Virus record (IMG/VR): IMGVR_UViG_3300049846_002136
Span: 1 to 27,109 of that record
DNA: 27,109 nt
Direction: 5' to 3' (one strand)
Source: a virus
Positions 4,441 through 26,681 of this stretch are shown in pieces (position 1 is the stretch's first letter; each line of letters begins with the position of its first letter). A program made the translations under genes and the position numbers. The notes under the pieces were generated by a model that worked only from the letters and a program-made list of their open reading frames with translations, was not told the DNA's origin and searched no databases.

Positions 4441-5739
4441 ATGATCCTAAGTAACCCAGCAAATATTCCTGCTCTGATGAAGAAATGGGATAGAGTGCTA
4501 TCATTAAATGAATCAGGAGTATCTGCCGTAACAGATCGTTATAAGAAAATTGCAATGGCAGTTGTTCTTGAAAACCAAGCATTGGAAAACAAAAAAAGCT
4601 CAATGCAAGGCTATTCTAGCCCTGGAGCATTGAACGAAGCGGTTCCAAATAACAGCACTGGTGGATTTCCAAATGCTAACCCAAATCTAAAAGGATACGA
4701 TCCTGTATTGATTTCACTAGTTCGACGTGTTATGCCAAAATTGATGGCATTTGACGTTGCAGGTGTTCAACCAATGAATGCACCTACTGGTTTAATCTTT
4801 GCAATGAAAAGCAAGTATACCACACAAGGTGGCGTAGAAGCCCTCCATAACGAGGCCGATACTGATTTCTCTGGAACTGGAGCACATCTAGATCCACTAG
4901 ATCCAATCACTTTAACTATGGGTGGTGTTGGTACTGGATTAACAACCGCTGCTGGTGAAGATGATATCATTCCTCAAATGGCATTCAGTATTGATAAAAT
5001 AACAGTTGAAGCAAAAACCAGAGCACTAAAAGCAGAATATACCGTTGAACTTGCTGATGATCTTCGTGCAGTTCATGGATTGGACGCTGAAAGTGAATTG
5101 GCTAATATCCTATCATCTGAAATTCTTGCTGAAATTAACCGAGAATTTATTCGAACAATATATGTATCTGCTGTACCTGGTGCAACTTATGCAACACTTC
5201 CTGGAACAATTGATCTAGACAACGACACAGATGGAAGATGGTTAGTTGAGAAGTTCAAAGGTTTAATGTTCCTTCTTGAAAAAGAAGCAAACACAATCGC
5301 AAAAAGAACTCGGCGTGGTCGTGGTAACTGGATTGTTTGTACTTCAGATGTTGCATCTGCCCTTTCAAGTGCAGGTCTACTTGATACCGGAACAAATCTA
5401 AAAGATAACCTAAACGTTGATGATACTGGTGAAACTTTTGTTGGTGTTCTTAACAATCGTTTCAAAGTTTATATTGATCCATATGTTGTAAATTCTAACT
5501 TCTTGACAGTTGGATTTAAAGGATCAACTCCATATGATGCTGGATTGTTCTACTGTCCGTACGTGCCCCTACAAATGATGAGGGCAGTTGGTCAGGATAA
5601 TTTCCAACCAAAAATTGCATTTAAGACTCGTTATGGGATTGTGGCACATCCTTATAGTAATTTTGCTGGAAACAGCAATGGTGCTATCGTTGCCAACACC
5701 AACGAATATTTCCGCAAAATGGCAATTACTTCACTGTAA
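4441..5739 (+). CDS. 23: Major capsid protein gp23
   Basis: The 432-residue protein is the major head subunit of HK97-like fold. Recognisable T4-type stretches include GYDPVLISLVRRVMPKL near residue 84, GLIFAMKSKY near residue 117, and the C-terminal half with YVPLQMMRAVGQDNFQP and FKTRYGIVAHPY. It is shorter than T4 gp23 (521 residues), mostly through loss of insertions. A candidate maturation cleavage site for the prohead protease lies at Leu64-Asn65-Glu66 before Ala67, close to the T4 cleavage position and of the usual Leu-x-Glu type. A strong AAGGAG ribosome site and a perfect late promoter precede it, and a terminator follows. DNA codon use is less AT-rich than in the neighbours, as expected for a highly expressed gene. 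Confidence 0.96.
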   Translation: MILSNPANIPALMKKWDRVLSLNESGVSAVTDRYKKIAMAVVLENQALENKKSSMQGYSSPGALNEAVPNNSTGGFPNANPNLKGYDPVLISLVRRVMPKLMAFDVAGVQPMNAPTGLIFAMKSKYTTQGGVEALHNEADTDFSGTGAHLDPLDPITLTMGGVGTGLTTAAGEDDIIPQMAFSIDKITVEAKTRALKAEYTVELADDLRAVHGLDAESELANILSSEILAEINREFIRTIYVSAVPGATYATLPGTIDLDNDTDGRWLVEKFKGLMFLLEKEANTIAKRTRRGRGNWIVCTSDVASALSSAGLLDTGTNLKDNLNVDDTGETFVGVLNNRFKVYIDPYVVNSNFLTVGFKGSTPYDAGLFYCPYVPLQMMRAVGQDNFQPKIAFKTRYGIVAHPYSNFAGNSNGAIVANTNEYFRKMAITSL

Positions 5740-19252: not shown

Positions 19253-20719
19253 ATGTCACAATTTTATACTCATTTTACCACTAAAGGCAATAACATCTTA
19301 TATATCGGAAGGGAGAATGGAAGAAAATTTATAAGAAAGGTTCCATATAAGCCAAGTCTATTCATAGAATCAAAATCACCAACAAAATATATAAGTCATG
19401 ATCAAACTAAATGGTTAAGTAGAATTAAGTTTGATTCAATATCAGATGCCAGGGAGTATATAAAATTATACGATGGTATTGATGGTCATGAAATATATGG
19501 CATGAGGAATTTTGAATATGCATTCATCTCAGATCAATATCCAAATGATATTGATTATGATTTATCTTTTGTTAAGATTTTATATTTTGATATTGAAACC
19601 AAGTGCGAATCTGGGTTTCCCAGCATGGAAACATTTGATCAACCTGTAATTGCAATTACTTGCCAAGTTGGCTCAAAATATACAGTATTCGGTCTAGGTG
19701 ATTTTACTAATAACTCATCCGACAATATTACATATATTAAATGTGGTTCTGAATCGGAACTTTTAATAAAATTTGTGGACTATATTAAAGTTGAATCGCC
19801 TGATATTTTATCTGGCTATAATATTGCATTTTTTGATATACCATATTTAATTGGTAGAATGGATCGAGTTATTGAACGTGATTATGCAAAGCGAATATCT
19901 CCTTGGCATGATATGCGAAGTAGGGTTATGACCATAAACCAAAAGACATATACAGTATATGATTTTTTAGGTTTGGTGACATTAGATTATATGGAAGTTT
20001 ATAAAAAGTTTTCCTCAGGTAGACCGGAAAATTATAAATTAGATACCCTAGCCAAAGAAGAATTGGGTGAATCCAAAGTTCAATTTGATGGAAATTTGAG
20101 AACACTATACACAACCGATTGGCAAAAATTTATAGAATATAACATCCATGACGTTAGAATTGTTTCAAGATTAGAGGAAAAATTAAAATTGATAGAAATG
20201 ATTCTAACTATTGCTTTTGATGCAAAGGTTAATTTTATGGATGTATTTAAGCAAGTTAGATTGTGGGATATTATTATTTTCAATCACCTAAAGAAAATCA
20301 AAGGAGTCATTCCTCCTAAATCTGAATCAGATAAGGATGTTCAATATGCGGGTGCTGCTGTTAAAGATCCTATAGTAGGAAAACATAATTGGTTGGTTTC
20401 CTTTGATGTAAATTCTCTATATCCAATGTTGATAGTTCAATATAATATTTCTCCTGAAAAATTAATAAAATCTAAAAGGATTGATTTAAACGTAGATGAG
20501 CTATTGAGTAATAGTCTTGAGTTGGAATATTTAAAAAACGATAATTTAAGTTTATGTGCTAATGGTCATTTTTTTAATAGAGATTCCCAAGGATTTTTGC
20601 CAAATATAATGGAAAGAATGTACGAGGATAGAAAAAAATATAAGAATGAAATGTCAAAATATAAATCTGAATTGGAACAAGTGAAAAAAGAATTAAAATC
20701 TAGAGGTATTGACATTTAA
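19253..20719 (+). CDS. 43A: DNA polymerase gp43, N-terminal part (43A)
   Basis: The 488-residue protein is the front part of a family B replicative polymerase. The exonuclease motifs are Exo I DIE (113-115), Exo II YNIAFFD (189-195) and Exo III YNIHD (296-300). Polymerase motif A, FDVNSLYP, is at 384-391 with the metal-binding Asp385. It ends after the first fingers helix, MYEDRKKYKNEMSKYKSEL and beyond, with a stop after GIDI. The rest of the enzyme is encoded at 21563. The ATG at 19253 has no ribosome site. The final codons overlap a sigma70-type -35 box for the inserted genes. No intein sequence is present at the break. Confidence 0.94.
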   Translation: MSQFYTHFTTKGNNILYIGRENGRKFIRKVPYKPSLFIESKSPTKYISHDQTKWLSRIKFDSISDAREYIKLYDGIDGHEIYGMRNFEYAFISDQYPNDIDYDLSFVKILYFDIETKCESGFPSMETFDQPVIAITCQVGSKYTVFGLGDFTNNSSDNITYIKCGSESELLIKFVDYIKVESPDILSGYNIAFFDIPYLIGRMDRVIERDYAKRISPWHDMRSRVMTINQKTYTVYDFLGLVTLDYMEVYKKFSSGRPENYKLDTLAKEELGESKVQFDGNLRTLYTTDWQKFIEYNIHDVRIVSRLEEKLKLIEMILTIAFDAKVNFMDVFKQVRLWDIIIFNHLKKIKGVIPPKSESDKDVQYAGAAVKDPIVGKHNWLVSFDVNSLYPMLIVQYNISPEKLIKSKRIDLNVDELLSNSLELEYLKNDNLSLCANGHFFNRDSQGFLPNIMERMYEDRKKYKNEMSKYKSELEQVKKELKSRGIDI

Positions 20720-21562: not shown

Positions 21563-22657
21563 ATGGAAAATTACTCAAAATTGAGCACAGATGCACTTTT
21601 AGAAAAAAAGAAAAATCTAGAAAGATTGGTATCTAAGTATTCAAATATGCAAAATGGAAAAAAGGTACAATTAAATTCTGCATATGGGGCCTTAGGTAAT
21701 GCTTATTTTAGATATTTTGATGTGCGATTGGCTGAGGCTGTGACCCTATCAGGTCAATTAGCGATTAAATGGGTTCAACGTGATTTAAATCTATATCTCA
21801 ATAAATTATTAAATGCATCTGATAAAGATTTTATAGTCGCCTCCGATACAGATTCAGCATATATCACTTTAAATGAAGTTGTAAATAAAACTTTTGATAA
21901 TCAAATAATAGATCAAGAAAAAATAGTAGAGTTTATTGATGTGTTTTGTGTTGAGGGGCTACAAAAAGTAATAAACAATTCATTTAACTCTTTATATGAA
22001 TATACTAATGGGTTTTTGCCTAGATTAGAAATGAAACGTGAATGCATTGCAAATACTGGAATATGGATAGCAAAGAAAAGATATGTAATAAGTGCATTAG
22101 ATGTTGAGGGTATTAGGTATAGTGCTCCAGTAATTAAGGCCACTGGTCTTGATGTTGTAAAAAGTTCAACTCCTGCTTTCATTAAAATATATCTGAATGA
22201 GGCATTAAAAATACTTTTGCAGGGCAAGGAATCTGATTTACAAAAGCATATGAAAGCGGTTAAGAATATTTTCTTTGATGCCGATATAGATAATATTTCT
22301 TTTCCCAAGTCCGTATCTGGGGTTAAAAAATATTCAAATAGACAAACAATATATACTAAAAGCACCCCAATAAACTCTAGGGCTGCTATACTTTATAATT
22401 ACCTTATCACCAAACATGGCTTGCAATCTAAATATGAACCCATAACCGAAGGCGAAAAAATAAAATATGTTTATCTAAAAGAACCAAATCCAATAGGAGA
22501 AAATGTTATTGGTTATATTGATAAATTGCCAGATGAATTTGGGTTATTAAAATATGTTGATTATGATTTGCAATTTAATAAAATATTCAAAAAACCCATA
22601 GAGGATATAGCAACTATTATTGGTTGGTCACTGGAGAAAAAAAGTACATTGTTTTAG
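21563..22657 (+). CDS. 43B: DNA polymerase gp43, C-terminal part (43B)
   Basis: The 364-residue protein holds the rest of the family B polymerase. It begins with a short helical stretch that belongs to the fingers, followed by motif B, KVQLNSAYG (34-42), motif C, SDTDS (94-98), the KKRY motif in the palm/thumb border, and the thumb up to a C-terminal EKKSTLF that resembles the clamp-binding end of T4 gp43. The catalytic Asp residues of motif C are therefore on a different chain from motif A. The two parts together have 852 residues, near the usual length, so little was lost at the break. There is no ribosome site of note; translation is probably coupled to the preceding gene. Confidence 0.94.
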   Translation: MENYSKLSTDALLEKKKNLERLVSKYSNMQNGKKVQLNSAYGALGNAYFRYFDVRLAEAVTLSGQLAIKWVQRDLNLYLNKLLNASDKDFIVASDTDSAYITLNEVVNKTFDNQIIDQEKIVEFIDVFCVEGLQKVINNSFNSLYEYTNGFLPRLEMKRECIANTGIWIAKKRYVISALDVEGIRYSAPVIKATGLDVVKSSTPAFIKIYLNEALKILLQGKESDLQKHMKAVKNIFFDADIDNISFPKSVSGVKKYSNRQTIYTKSTPINSRAAILYNYLITKHGLQSKYEPITEGEKIKYVYLKEPNPIGENVIGYIDKLPDEFGLLKYVDYDLQFNKIFKKPIEDIATIIGWSLEKKSTLF

Positions 22658-23761: not shown

Positions 23762-24034
23762 GTGGAGAATAAAAAGTACCAAATATTAGACCATAATGGA
23801 AGTGGTATAAAAGTATTCATATTGTCAGGAGAATGGCAAGGTGTTACTATATTATTTGATAACTTCAATAAAAATGGTGATAAGGGAACATATACATATG
23901 AATTTTTTGGTTTACCCTCTAATAAACTACATTTATTAAATTCTTACTTGAATGAAGAACAAGAATCATCTATACTATTTACTATAAGAGAAATTGCATC
24001 CGGTTTATTTCAAATATTAGCATCACATGAATGA
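23762..24034 (+). CDS. Small hypothetical protein between uvsX and gp41
   Basis: The 90-residue product starts with GTG at 23762, eight bases after GGA. The N-terminal half is beta-like (YQILDHNGSGIKVFILSGEW), the C-terminal half mainly helical. It overlaps the start of the helicase gene by eight bases, so the two are translationally coupled. No family is recognised. Its position suggests a replication-related accessory function, but nothing in the sequence proves one. Confidence 0.6.
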   Translation: MENKKYQILDHNGSGIKVFILSGEWQGVTILFDNFNKNGDKGTYTYEFFGLPSNKLHLLNSYLNEEQESSILFTIREIASGLFQILASHE

Positions 24035-24668
24035 TAGAATTGAGATTTTAATACTAAAGGGGCTTATACATGATGAAGAGTATTGTAGAAAGGTTTTGCC
24101 TTTTATAAAAGAAGAATATTTTGATAATTTTTCATATCTGTGTATTTTTAAGTTAGTATCAAATTTTATTAATAAACACAATGCACTCCCCACAATAGAG
24201 GCGATATCTATTATGGCTTCTGAGGAGGCCCTGAATAGTGAACAATATAAGACTATACAAGAATTGATTATTACATTATCCGTTTATGATAAGCAATCAT
24301 TAGATTGGTTTGTCGATCAAACTGAAAAGTTCTGTAAAGATAGATCAATCATAAATGCATTCAAAACTGGTATTAGTATTATTGATGGCAAAGATAAGAC
24401 AAGAAATATCAGTATACTTCCAGATTTAATGAAAGATGCCTTATCCGTATCATTTGATACTTCTGTTGGACACTCTTATGTTGATGATGCTGAGTCTAGA
24501 TTTGATTTTTATCATTCTAAAGTTGAGCAATTGCCATTCGACATTGAAATTTTGAATAAGATTACAAATGGTGGTGTTCCAAAGAAATCACTCAATTTGG
24601 TTATGGCCGGTTGTGTACATCCTGATACTAAAGTTAAGATTAGGATTAGGAGATGTAATGCCAATTAG
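24027..24668 (+). CDS. 41: Replicative helicase gp41, N-terminal part fused to a short N-intein
   Basis: The 213-residue protein consists of 195 residues of gp41 and an 18-residue intein start. The extein part has the DnaB-like N-terminal helices and the linker up to SLNLVMAG, which is the first strand and beginning of the Walker A motif. The next residue is Cys196, followed by VHPDTKV, a normal intein block A with the C-x-x-x-x-T spacing. The intein part then stops after RRCNAN. The last 23 bases overlap the 3' end of the HNH gene on the other strand, so the final residues are probably not original intein sequence. On its own this protein lacks a complete P-loop and cannot be an active helicase; it must be spliced to the product at 25494. 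Confidence 0.9.
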   Translation: MNDRIEILILKGLIHDEEYCRKVLPFIKEEYFDNFSYLCIFKLVSNFINKHNALPTIEAISIMASEEALNSEQYKTIQELIITLSVYDKQSLDWFVDQTEKFCKDRSIINAFKTGISIIDGKDKTRNISILPDLMKDALSVSFDTSVGHSYVDDAESRFDFYHSKVEQLPFDIEILNKITNGGVPKKSLNLVMAGCVHPDTKVKIRIRRCNAN

Positions 24669-25440
24669 ATTTTTTTGATTTACATCTATATATAACTGCT
24701 CCGGGTGTTATTAAGTTTTTTTCTGCCGCCTCATGTATTGAATTATAAGTAATTATGCCATCGGATACCATTTTCCTTCTAGGAGATGGTTTTCCTTTTT
24801 TGCCCAGGTGTGGTTTTATTGGTGAACCCAGAACATATCCTTCTTTTTTATATTTTTCAACGTCTTCTATTTTTGCTCTAATGAAAGTATTTGAACCTGG
24901 TATATGCATACATTTTTTTCCTTTATGGGCCTTTCCTCCCATACTACCTCTAATTAATCTTCCTTCCTTTGTTGTCCAAAAATGCCAAGGATTATTTTTA
25001 GATTTTATAGAGGCCTTTCCACCAATTGATGCATACATCTTTGTATTTTTTGGATTAAATATCCCAACTTTAGTTTCCATTTGAGTTTTAATGCCCTTTA
25101 ATTTCCATAATTTTTTTGTTTCAGTATCAACACCATGCATTCCTATTTTATTATCAAAACAAAATTTTCCAATCTTTTTTCTATACTCTCTGGATAATTT
25201 CCCTCCTAACATTTTCATTGCTCTAAGATCATTTACGTTATTATGTATTTTCCATAATAAAAAGTGTGCTAATATGTGTTCTTTTATGGTTAAATATGCA
25301 ATGTTGTCTTCTTCATTTGTTCCATTCATATGTTTTGGTATGATGTGATGATTATGATATATTTCTCCAATAATACTAAAATTTCGTTGACTACCCATCT
25401 CACATATAGTATGATAAACTTTAGAATATATTTGTTTCAT
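24646..25440 (-). CDS. HNH homing-type endonuclease, antisense within the split helicase
   Basis: The 264-residue protein has an HNH nuclease core: His31-His32 in HHIIPKHMNG, Asn46 in DNIAYL, and His55 and His59 in EHILAH. The middle contains Gly-Gly-Lys repeats with aromatic residues (GGKASIKSKNNPWHFW, then GGKAHKGKK), as in NUMOD-type DNA-binding modules of homing enzymes. The C-terminus, DGIITYNSIHEAAEKNLITP followed by YRCKSKKSNWHYI, is an IENR1/NUMOD1-like DNA-binding domain. It lies between the two halves of the split intein but in the opposite direction, so it is free-standing and not a domain of the intein. It converges with gp41N and diverges from gp41C. A perfect late promoter reads into it. 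A frame-intact gene suggests it is still active. Confidence 0.9.
   Translation of the reverse strand: MKQIYSKVYHTICEMGSQRNFSIIGEIYHNHHIIPKHMNGTNEEDNIAYLTIKEHILAHFLLWKIHNNVNDLRAMKMLGGKLSREYRKKIGKFCFDNKIGMHGVDTETKKLWKLKGIKTQMETKVGIFNPKNTKMYASIGGKASIKSKNNPWHFWTTKEGRLIRGSMGGKAHKGKKCMHIPGSNTFIRAKIEDVEKYKKEGYVLGSPIKPHLGKKGKPSPRRKMVSDGIITYNSIHEAAEKNLITPGAVIYRCKSKKSNWHYIS
25387..25415 (+). promoter_or_regulatory. Sigma70-type promoter for gp41C, inside the HNH gene
   Basis: TTGACT (25387-25392), a 17-base spacer and TATGAT (25410-25415), the same hexamers and spacing as at uvsY. It lies within the first 18 codons of the HNH gene, on the other strand, and would start RNA near 25422, about 72 bases before gp41C. 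Confidence 0.65.
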
Positions 25441-25477
25441 ATTTATTACCGGTCCCTGCCAATATAACGTTAATTTT

Positions 25478-25485
25478 TATTTATA
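25478..25485 (-). promoter_or_regulatory. T4-type late promoter for the HNH gene
   Basis: TATTTATA on the + strand reads TATAAATA on the - strand, 38 bases before the HNH start codon at 25440. It is the only late promoter found on the - strand. Confidence 0.75.
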
Positions 25486-25493
25486 GTTTTTTT

Positions 25494-26681
25494 ATGCTTA
25501 ATGAGAGCTGGATAGAAAAAGAAGTAGCATTTAAAGAAATTGATAGTTTATTACAAGCCGGATATGAAGTTGAAATTGATTCACCTGATGGGTTTGTTGG
25601 TGTGAATTGCTTTGTCGATAAAGGTGAGTGGGTTGAATATAAATTGACACTCTCCGATCATAGAGAAGTCTCGGTTAATGAGAACCACTTATTTGAAACG
25701 ATAAATGGTTGGGAATTTGCTAAAGACTTATGTGATGGGGAACATACATTCTTAACAAACACCGGTTATGTGGTTGGTAAAGTTAATAAAAGTGGAAATA
25801 TAATACCTATAGTTGATATTAATGTTAATCATAAAAATCATAGATATTACGCCAATGGAATCTCATCCCACAATACTGCTGTAGGTAAATCTACATTTTT
25901 ATCTCATTTGGCTTGTTCATATTTTATGCAAGGTTATAATGTATTCTATGGTACATTTGAAATGTCAAGGGAAAGAACGGCAGCCAGATTTGATGCCAAT
26001 TTGTTAAATATACCAATAAATGATCTTAATGATTTACCTAAGTCGTCATTTGACAACGCCATGAAAAAAATTATGCTAAAGACTCCAGGTAAACTTATTG
26101 TAGAAGAATATCCAACATCTTCGGTTAATATGCTTCATGTTGCACACACTTTAGATGAATTGCAATTAAAGAGAAATTTTATCCCTGATGTAATTATATT
26201 GGATTATCTTAATATAATATTAAGTCACCGCATAAAAGTATCAAATAGTGGTACATATGCTTATATTAAATATGTTGCAGAAGAAATGAGAGCCATGGCA
26301 GTATTAAGAAATGTTCCAATATGGACTGCCACGCAATTAAATAGAGAAGGATTTAGATCATCTGATGTTGGTTTAGAAAATACATCAGAAAGTTTTGGTA
26401 TACCAGTGACGGCTGATTTAATGGTTGCATTGATTTCTACAGAAGAATTAGAAGCACAAAATCAAATTTTACTAAAACAATTAAAAAATAGGTATAATGA
26501 TTCGGCTAAAGATAGAAGGATAATATTAGGAATAGATAGGCCTAGAATGAGATTTTATGAAGTTTCGGAAGCCGCACAAAATCAAATTAATCAAGATGTA
26601 AGTGATTTGATGAAGAGTGAAAATAGCAATAATATGATTCCTATGAGTTCAAATAAATTCTCTGATTTTAACTTTTCTTAA
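25494..26681 (+). CDS. 41: C-intein fused to C-terminal part of helicase gp41
   Basis: Residues 1-127 are an unusually long C-intein: block B VNENHLF with His65, block F IVDINVNHKNHRYYANG with Asp108 and His116, and block G ISSHN ending in His126-Asn127. The +1 residue is Thr128. The extein then runs TAVGKSTFLSHLA, completing the Walker A motif begun by gp41N. The rest is the RecA-like helicase core with Walker B VIILDYLNI, WTATQLNREG and ESFGIPVTADLM, as in T4 gp41. Ligation would give a 463-residue helicase, near T4's 475. The ATG has no ribosome site; the promoter at 25387 probably serves it. Confidence 0.92.
   Translation: MLNESWIEKEVAFKEIDSLLQAGYEVEIDSPDGFVGVNCFVDKGEWVEYKLTLSDHREVSVNENHLFETINGWEFAKDLCDGEHTFLTNTGYVVGKVNKSGNIIPIVDINVNHKNHRYYANGISSHNTAVGKSTFLSHLACSYFMQGYNVFYGTFEMSRERTAARFDANLLNIPINDLNDLPKSSFDNAMKKIMLKTPGKLIVEEYPTSSVNMLHVAHTLDELQLKRNFIPDVIILDYLNIILSHRIKVSNSGTYAYIKYVAEEMRAMAVLRNVPIWTATQLNREGFRSSDVGLENTSESFGIPVTADLMVALISTEELEAQNQILLKQLKNRYNDSAKDRRIILGIDRPRMRFYEVSEAAQNQINQDVSDLMKSENSNNMIPMSSNKFSDFNFS

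Follow-up and report, generated by a model that had tools for sequence, protein, structure and literature searches.

How a phage could make its replicative helicase from a gene that is broken within the Walker A motif is the question raised by the gp41 locus of IMGVR_UViG_3300049846_002136. This 27,109-base viral record stems from a marine T4-like phage, is a fragment rather than a full genome, and is referred to here over its whole length as the window. Relatives of its helicase are found in phages of marine Methylophilales, Pelagibacter phages and cyanophages. A first-pass annotation, made from the sequence alone, had noted that gp41 ends at MAG followed by a cysteine and an intein block A of 18 residues in total, and that a separate gene further on supplies blocks B, F and G before the helicase resumes at TAVGKST. 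We confirm a fractured gp41 with a split intein as a real feature of the window, the two open reading frames (ORFs) being 825 bp apart, and the interpretation given to it then is supported (Table 1). The locus very likely carries a mobile class 1 intein that is split by nature, in the atypical manner of the VidaL (S1) type. The evidence is drawn from sequence and comprises the anatomy of the locus, homology, the fold of a contiguous relative, an exactly defined empty site, transfer as a unit and selection.

Table 1. Positions of the fractured gp41 gene, its split intein (N-terminal part, IntN; C-terminal part, IntC) and the homing endonuclease gene (HEG) in the window, with the leader hairpin of related loci (L numbers).
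Feature	Positions	Strand	Remarks
gp41N ORF	24027-24668	+	213 aa; ends LVMAG then CVHPDTKVKIRIRRCNAN (18 aa)
gp41 N-extein	24027-24611	+	195 aa; phrog_19 positions 159-361
IntN	24612-24668	+	18 aa, CVHPDTKVKIRIRRCNAN, and stop; Cys1, block A
HNH HEG	24646-25440	-	264 aa; between the gp41 halves
GCAGGGACCGG	25449-25459	-	copy of the empty-site codon pattern GCN GGN ACN GGN (A-G-T-G); candidate autorepression operator
TATAAATA	25478-25485	-	T4-type late promoter motif for the HEG
gp41C ORF	25494-26681	+	395 aa
IntC	25494-25874	+	127 aa; blocks B (VNENHLF), F (IVDINVNHKNHRYYANGI) and G (SSHN)
gp41 C-extein	25875-26681	+	268 aa; Thr+1, remainder of Walker A (TAVGKST), DnaB_C domain
Leader hairpin	L005 5929-5965	-	also L086, L093, L111, L128, L140, L147, L148, L154 and others

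The two gp41 parts add up to one complete helicase. Profile phrog_19 is tiled without overlap or loss, with the C part taking over at position 362 and running to 605. L007, L008 and L010, whose intein-less helicases are the closest (67% identity), have the corresponding 195 and 268 residues joined end to end, and the junction DNA reads GCCGGT/ACAGGA (slashes mark insertion points). The insertion is thus exact, lying between Gly195 and Thr196, and it breaks the Walker A motif (AGTAVGKST), as first proposed; the ligated helicase would have 463 residues. It is not a chance interruption, since the site recurs in 61 further distinct inteins; one of these is contiguous, and the other 60 share the split position. 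The profile break at 361/362 is shared by the window and 12 intein-bearing contigs, and two intein-less controls are unbroken. Each of these 14 related contigs (47-234 kb) encodes one gp41. An intact second gp41, which the first-pass annotation had named as an observation that would speak against its proposal, was found neither in the 27 kb record nor in the related contigs of up to 234 kb.

Among known inteins, VidaL is the closest to that of the window. VidaL (PDB 6VGV) is the best PDB sequence match of the window IntC (E 1e-9 for the single sequence), and a profile of four inteins matches it at E 2e-14; the alignment to gp41-1 is weak (E 3e-5). The alignments conserve Cys1, N62-x-x-H65 in block B, D108 and H113 in block F, the terminal H126-N127 and Thr+1, and conservation of IntN is limited to its first ~13-14 residues. 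Contiguous inteins in L109, L237 and L285 supply unsplit sequence, and the model for L237 adopts a HINT fold (predicted local distance difference test, pLDDT, 95.8) with VidaL as its top PDB match (template modelling, TM, score 0.89) and further inteins as the other top matches. Modelled alone, the window IntC has a pLDDT of 83 and again matches VidaL best (TM 0.66). The window split maps to the loop between the strands at residues 7-13 and 18-23 of the L237 model, and the helix at residues 24-32 belongs to IntC. Residues and fold are those of a class 1 (HINT) intein, which is naturally split, with its halves lying in separate genes of a native sequence. The 18+127 arrangement with Thr as +1 residue put forward initially is supported by the splicing residues, the L237 fold and the VidaL match.

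Short N-terminal parts of 15-37 residues occur naturally in the atypical split inteins AceL-TerL, GOS-TerL and PolB16 OarG (PMC13014065, PMC11766414). VidaL has an IntN of 16 residues and is split directly after strand beta2, whereas AceL-TerL is split after helix alpha1 (PMC13014065). The window intein can be assigned by sequence comparison to the VidaL (S1) type because its IntN has 18 residues, the split lies directly after beta2 as in VidaL and the two are homologous; it sits in another P-loop host protein than the UvsX of VidaL. Among the types initially named, VidaL therefore holds, while AceL-TerL is a more distant analogue only. An assignment to the AceL-TerL (S2) type was rejected, with the helix in IntC and gp41 rather than TerL as host. 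So was the gp41-1 type, the window insertion being MAG/C...HN/T and not QTTRSGY/C with a canonical split. An intein named VidaL_T4Lh-1 possibly occupies this helicase site.

Searching with the VidaL IntC recovered native VidaL loci in the phage recombinase UvsX, where the junctions read FAGESG/CLPKEAVVQIRLTKKG and HN/SGKSYF. The IntN of 16 residues, read from L072 and L074, matches the published length (PMC13014065). VidaL (PDB 6VGV/6VGW) and the window intein share Cys1, the split after beta2, insertion in a Walker A motif and an equivalent IntC start (EEKKV versus WIEKEV), and L072 also has a homing endonuclease gene between the halves (L074 has none). They differ in host (GESG/C...HN/SGKSY, with Ser+1), are ~30% identical, and the endonuclease of VidaL loci, where present, is encoded on the sense strand and is not the HNH protein of the gp41-intein family. 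Pseudomonas jumbo phage MIJ3 (L076, 40227-47610) also has a VidaL-type arrangement in UvsX, with CLPETAKVKIRLSKKQS as IntN half and a sense-strand endonuclease-like gene. The cultured Pseudomonas jumbo phages PA5oct, Callisto, Paride, Ettore, Cassandra and Deifobo match a VidaL-type IntC in UvsX. The records of these phages label the C part as RecA, UvsX or structural protein, and where the MIJ3 paper deals with inteins it describes one in polymerase B only (PMC6892783).

Other known systems share some of these traits. PolB16 OarG has the S1 split site in common with the window intein but is cysteine-less and resides in a polymerase; AceL-TerL and GOS-TerL have their split behind the first helix (S2) and reside in a terminase. 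The canonically split gp41-1 (PDB 6QAZ) interrupts the same host protein and shows weak sequence and fold similarity, but it is inserted further downstream (QTTRSGY/C), and L237 and L285 carry both kinds. Dassa and colleagues reportedly described, in 2009, phage genes fractured by split inteins whose two parts enclose an endonuclease gene, with canonical splits (long IntN) and a Vsr-like EDxHD endonuclease. The window resembles these in that a split intein breaks up a phage replication gene and encloses an endonuclease gene, yet its split is at the N-terminal S1 site and the endonuclease gene is an antisense HNH gene. A fractured gene of the EDxHD kind was considered and set aside: split intein and endonuclease are present, but the endonuclease is of the HNH family.

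We suggest that the locus gives rise to two precursors, gp41N-IntN and IntC-gp41C. IntC would form most of the HINT fold by itself, the short IntN adding strands beta1 and beta2, and Cys1, the block B histidine, the terminal His-Asn and Thr+1 would perform the trans-splicing that we infer for the gp41 halves. Splicing would join LVMAG to TAVGKST and restore Walker A, and we therefore propose that only the ligated protein is a helicase. A different way to a working protein would be non-covalent assembly of the gp41 pieces without splicing, as may happen for a split DNA polymerase. The window itself encodes DNA polymerase B in two genes (19253-20719, 488 aa; 21563-22657, 364 aa) with two small ORFs between them, and the ends of the two polymerase ORFs showed no intein motif. 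The gp41 break, however, lies inside Walker A and is flanked by conserved intein sequence instead of free termini, unlike the polymerase break with no visible intein. We find non-covalent assembly of gp41 hardly credible.

The interruption might also be removed or bypassed at the level of RNA or translation, through a group I intron with an antisense HEG, a frameshift, read-through or bypassing, with the intein made as one chain. HNH genes with I-TevI-like DNA-binding ends often lie in group I introns, and contiguous inteins of the same allele exist. Against this, no Rfam intron match was obtained in the window, in L005, L111, L086 and L147 or in the gap of L002, and just 53 nt upstream of IntC lie outside the HEG ORF; a group I intron or other RNA was rejected accordingly. 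The gaps range from overlap to 1.6 kb and nearly always contain in-frame stops, and the two halves do not keep a fixed reading-frame relation. There is thus no conserved recoding geometry, and frameshift or read-through was rejected as well. We give very little credence to a rescue at the RNA or translation level.

A third possibility is that gp41 is a pseudogene destroyed by a homing endonuclease gene, with the intein-like ends as dead remnants. An endonuclease gene does sit midway in an essential gene, and splicing is read from the sequence. Yet the splicing residues are conserved across the family, related contigs have a single gp41 each, and neither gp41N nor gp41C of the window contains a stop or frameshift. 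The ratio of nonsynonymous to synonymous substitution rates (dN/dS) is ~0.13 for intein and helicase alike, with medians of 0.125 (147 pairs) for the intein and 0.130 (82 pairs) for the helicase extein, the pairs not being independent. These values point to purifying selection on both, and we regard a pseudogene as very improbable.

Comparisons between relatives show that the split intein moves as a unit. L091 and L092 are 99-100% identical in DNA across IntN, HEG and IntC and 60-83% identical over the helicase on both sides, except for the first 30 nt after IntC (97%). L078 and L083 are 97-100% identical inside the element and 62-87% outside; L115 and L117 show a looser version of this contrast with a longer flanking tract. 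The window helicase is nearest to intein-less genes (67%), while its intein reaches 67% identity to inteins residing in helicases that are only 39-47% identical to its own host protein. Such a pattern is expected of homing, with the whole IntN-HEG-IntC block copied. We infer that the HNH protein would cleave gp41 genes that lack the intein, at their Walker A codons, upon which the block would be copied into the cut gene.

The HEG product is recognizable as an HNH protein (PF01844; phrog_655, 2e-18; phrog_12434) with a C-terminal I-TevI-type DNA-binding stretch at residues 216-262. In the window the HEG ORF overlaps the end of the gp41N ORF by 23 bp, covering the gp41N stop codon, and the HEG stop falls within codon 12 of IntN; in most relatives the HEG stop codon begins at IntN nucleotide 34. 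The gene is antisense to gp41 in 55 of 55 loci. An exact copy of the motif TATAAATA precedes the HEG on the minus strand in 43 of 47 distinct loci, against an expected count of 0.4 from the background of the loci themselves and 2.3 from dinucleotide shuffles. From the placement and orientation of this T4 late promoter core, the HEG is predicted to be transcribed late and against the helicase gene. Other exact copies in the window, at 2088, 2641, 3054 and 4392, are all on the plus strand in the structural-gene region, and those at 2088, 3054 and 4392 sit 47-70 nt ahead of genes. Ahead of the structural genes, the window also contains an open-ended 700-aa ORF (3-2105) that consists of a degenerate IPSAEAFGSHKLNL-like repeat. 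In T4, homing endonuclease genes run with their neighbours except for the antisense segD, for which no promoter was found (PMC2988022).

The leader of the HEG may have a regulatory role. The motif GCNGGNACNGG, which reproduces the codon positions conserved in the empty site (A-G-T-G), lies between promoter and HEG start in 29 of 47 loci including the window, against 0.017 expected, an excess that is post hoc since the pattern was picked after inspecting the leaders; the loci are, moreover, related. When HEG leaders were searched for the empty site by 20-nt identity, no excess emerged. I-TevI of T4 represses itself through a homing-site-like operator at its late promoter (PMC2988022). By analogy, we propose the leader copy of the target site as a candidate operator for HEG autorepression. 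Both endonuclease genes have a late promoter of their own (predicted for the HEG), a homing-site-like sequence nearby and a related C-terminal DNA-binding stretch; I-TevI is a GIY-YIG nuclease encoded in a group I intron on the host-gene strand, whereas the window has an antisense HNH gene in a split intein. In most leaders that lack the target-site copy there is instead a hairpin of 37 nt, in which 8 of 10 pairs covary and none is G-U; it has no Rfam match in the four loci scanned. The hairpin is nearly restricted to these leaders; matches away from the gp41 intein lie in L238 (1411-1447, minus strand) and L095 (9315-9348, minus strand).

The large, unannotated family was sampled as 80 of 158 related viral loci from a profile scan of viral contigs, and all loci examined share the one gp41 site (AG/C...HN/T). 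Among these 80, 62 distinct gp41 intein sequences were distinguished, 61 split and one contiguous; more contiguous inteins, L237 and the L283-L289 group, came from a later scan. IntN of the split gp41 inteins has 14-23 residues, mostly 16-18. An endonuclease match was present in 55 distinct intein loci and absent from six; conversely, 75 of the best 80 HEG relatives adjoin this intein and four adjoin gp41N at a contig end. L120 has an extra unrelated gene of 257 aa between IntN and HEG (4460-5233), several relatives have long gaps of 1.0-1.6 kb like it, and L002 has an additional ORF between HEG and IntC. In L003/L004, L237, L238 and L285, gp41 is interrupted again further downstream by an intein with a canonical split, either at the gp41-1 site QTTRSG[YF]/C or at [DN]TSE/C, and the helicase of L003, L004 and L238 is consequently in three pieces. 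All gp41 copies of this intein come from metagenome assemblies, and no relative of the intein was found in a scan of GTDB genomes (cellular hosts).

Several points weigh against the reading as a mobile split intein. No clear Shine-Dalgarno motif precedes the IntC start, although about half of the genes in the window lack one too. IntN and IntC of the window were modelled only apart, the joint fold being taken from the contiguous L237. As a 27 kb fragment, the record leaves room for an intact gp41 elsewhere in the genome of this phage. No gp41 copy of the intein was found among 50,697 phage records, and splicing, cleavage and expression are deduced from comparison.

The one gp41 site displays a series of states: intact HEG, HEG fragments (L078, L079, L106), HEG deletions, overlapping ORFs (L136) and contiguous inteins (L109, L237, L285). 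Four loci have no HEG but still have the late promoter in the gap (L081, L100, L140 and L151), and L140 also retains the leader hairpin; they thus arose by HEG loss. The inteins of L081 and L086 are 99% alike, one without and the other with a HEG, and the HEG-less state requires at least five changes on the tree. In L136 (1-240, near a contig end), the gap is missing altogether and the ORFs of IntN and IntC, which are in different frames, run into each other, one frame step from a contiguous intein, and its closest relatives bear a HEG. The tree places the contiguous L109 and L237 inside the split group, the alternative not being rejected (p 0.26-0.49). Splitting might be reversible, with the allele cycling through contiguous, split with HEG, HEG-decayed and overlapping forms and with the HEG controlling itself through the target-site copy, a tentative proposal that may well be wrong.

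A natural VidaL-type atypical split intein in a fractured phage gene is a kind of element already known. New, within the literature and libraries searched, are the large family at the gp41 Walker A site, the antisense HNH gene with its predicted late promoter and target-site copy, and the series from cis to split forms at a single site. The locus offers an example of a homing endonuclease gene in antisense orientation to its host gene, with its own predicted late promoter. The family also provides dozens of natural IntN of 14-23 residues, short enough for peptide synthesis and related to the protein-labelling tool VidaL. The family bears on the questions of how natural split inteins come about, why some are split so near the N-terminus and whether splits are undone. 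One site shows every intermediate, and the steps of intein splitting are therefore directly testable.

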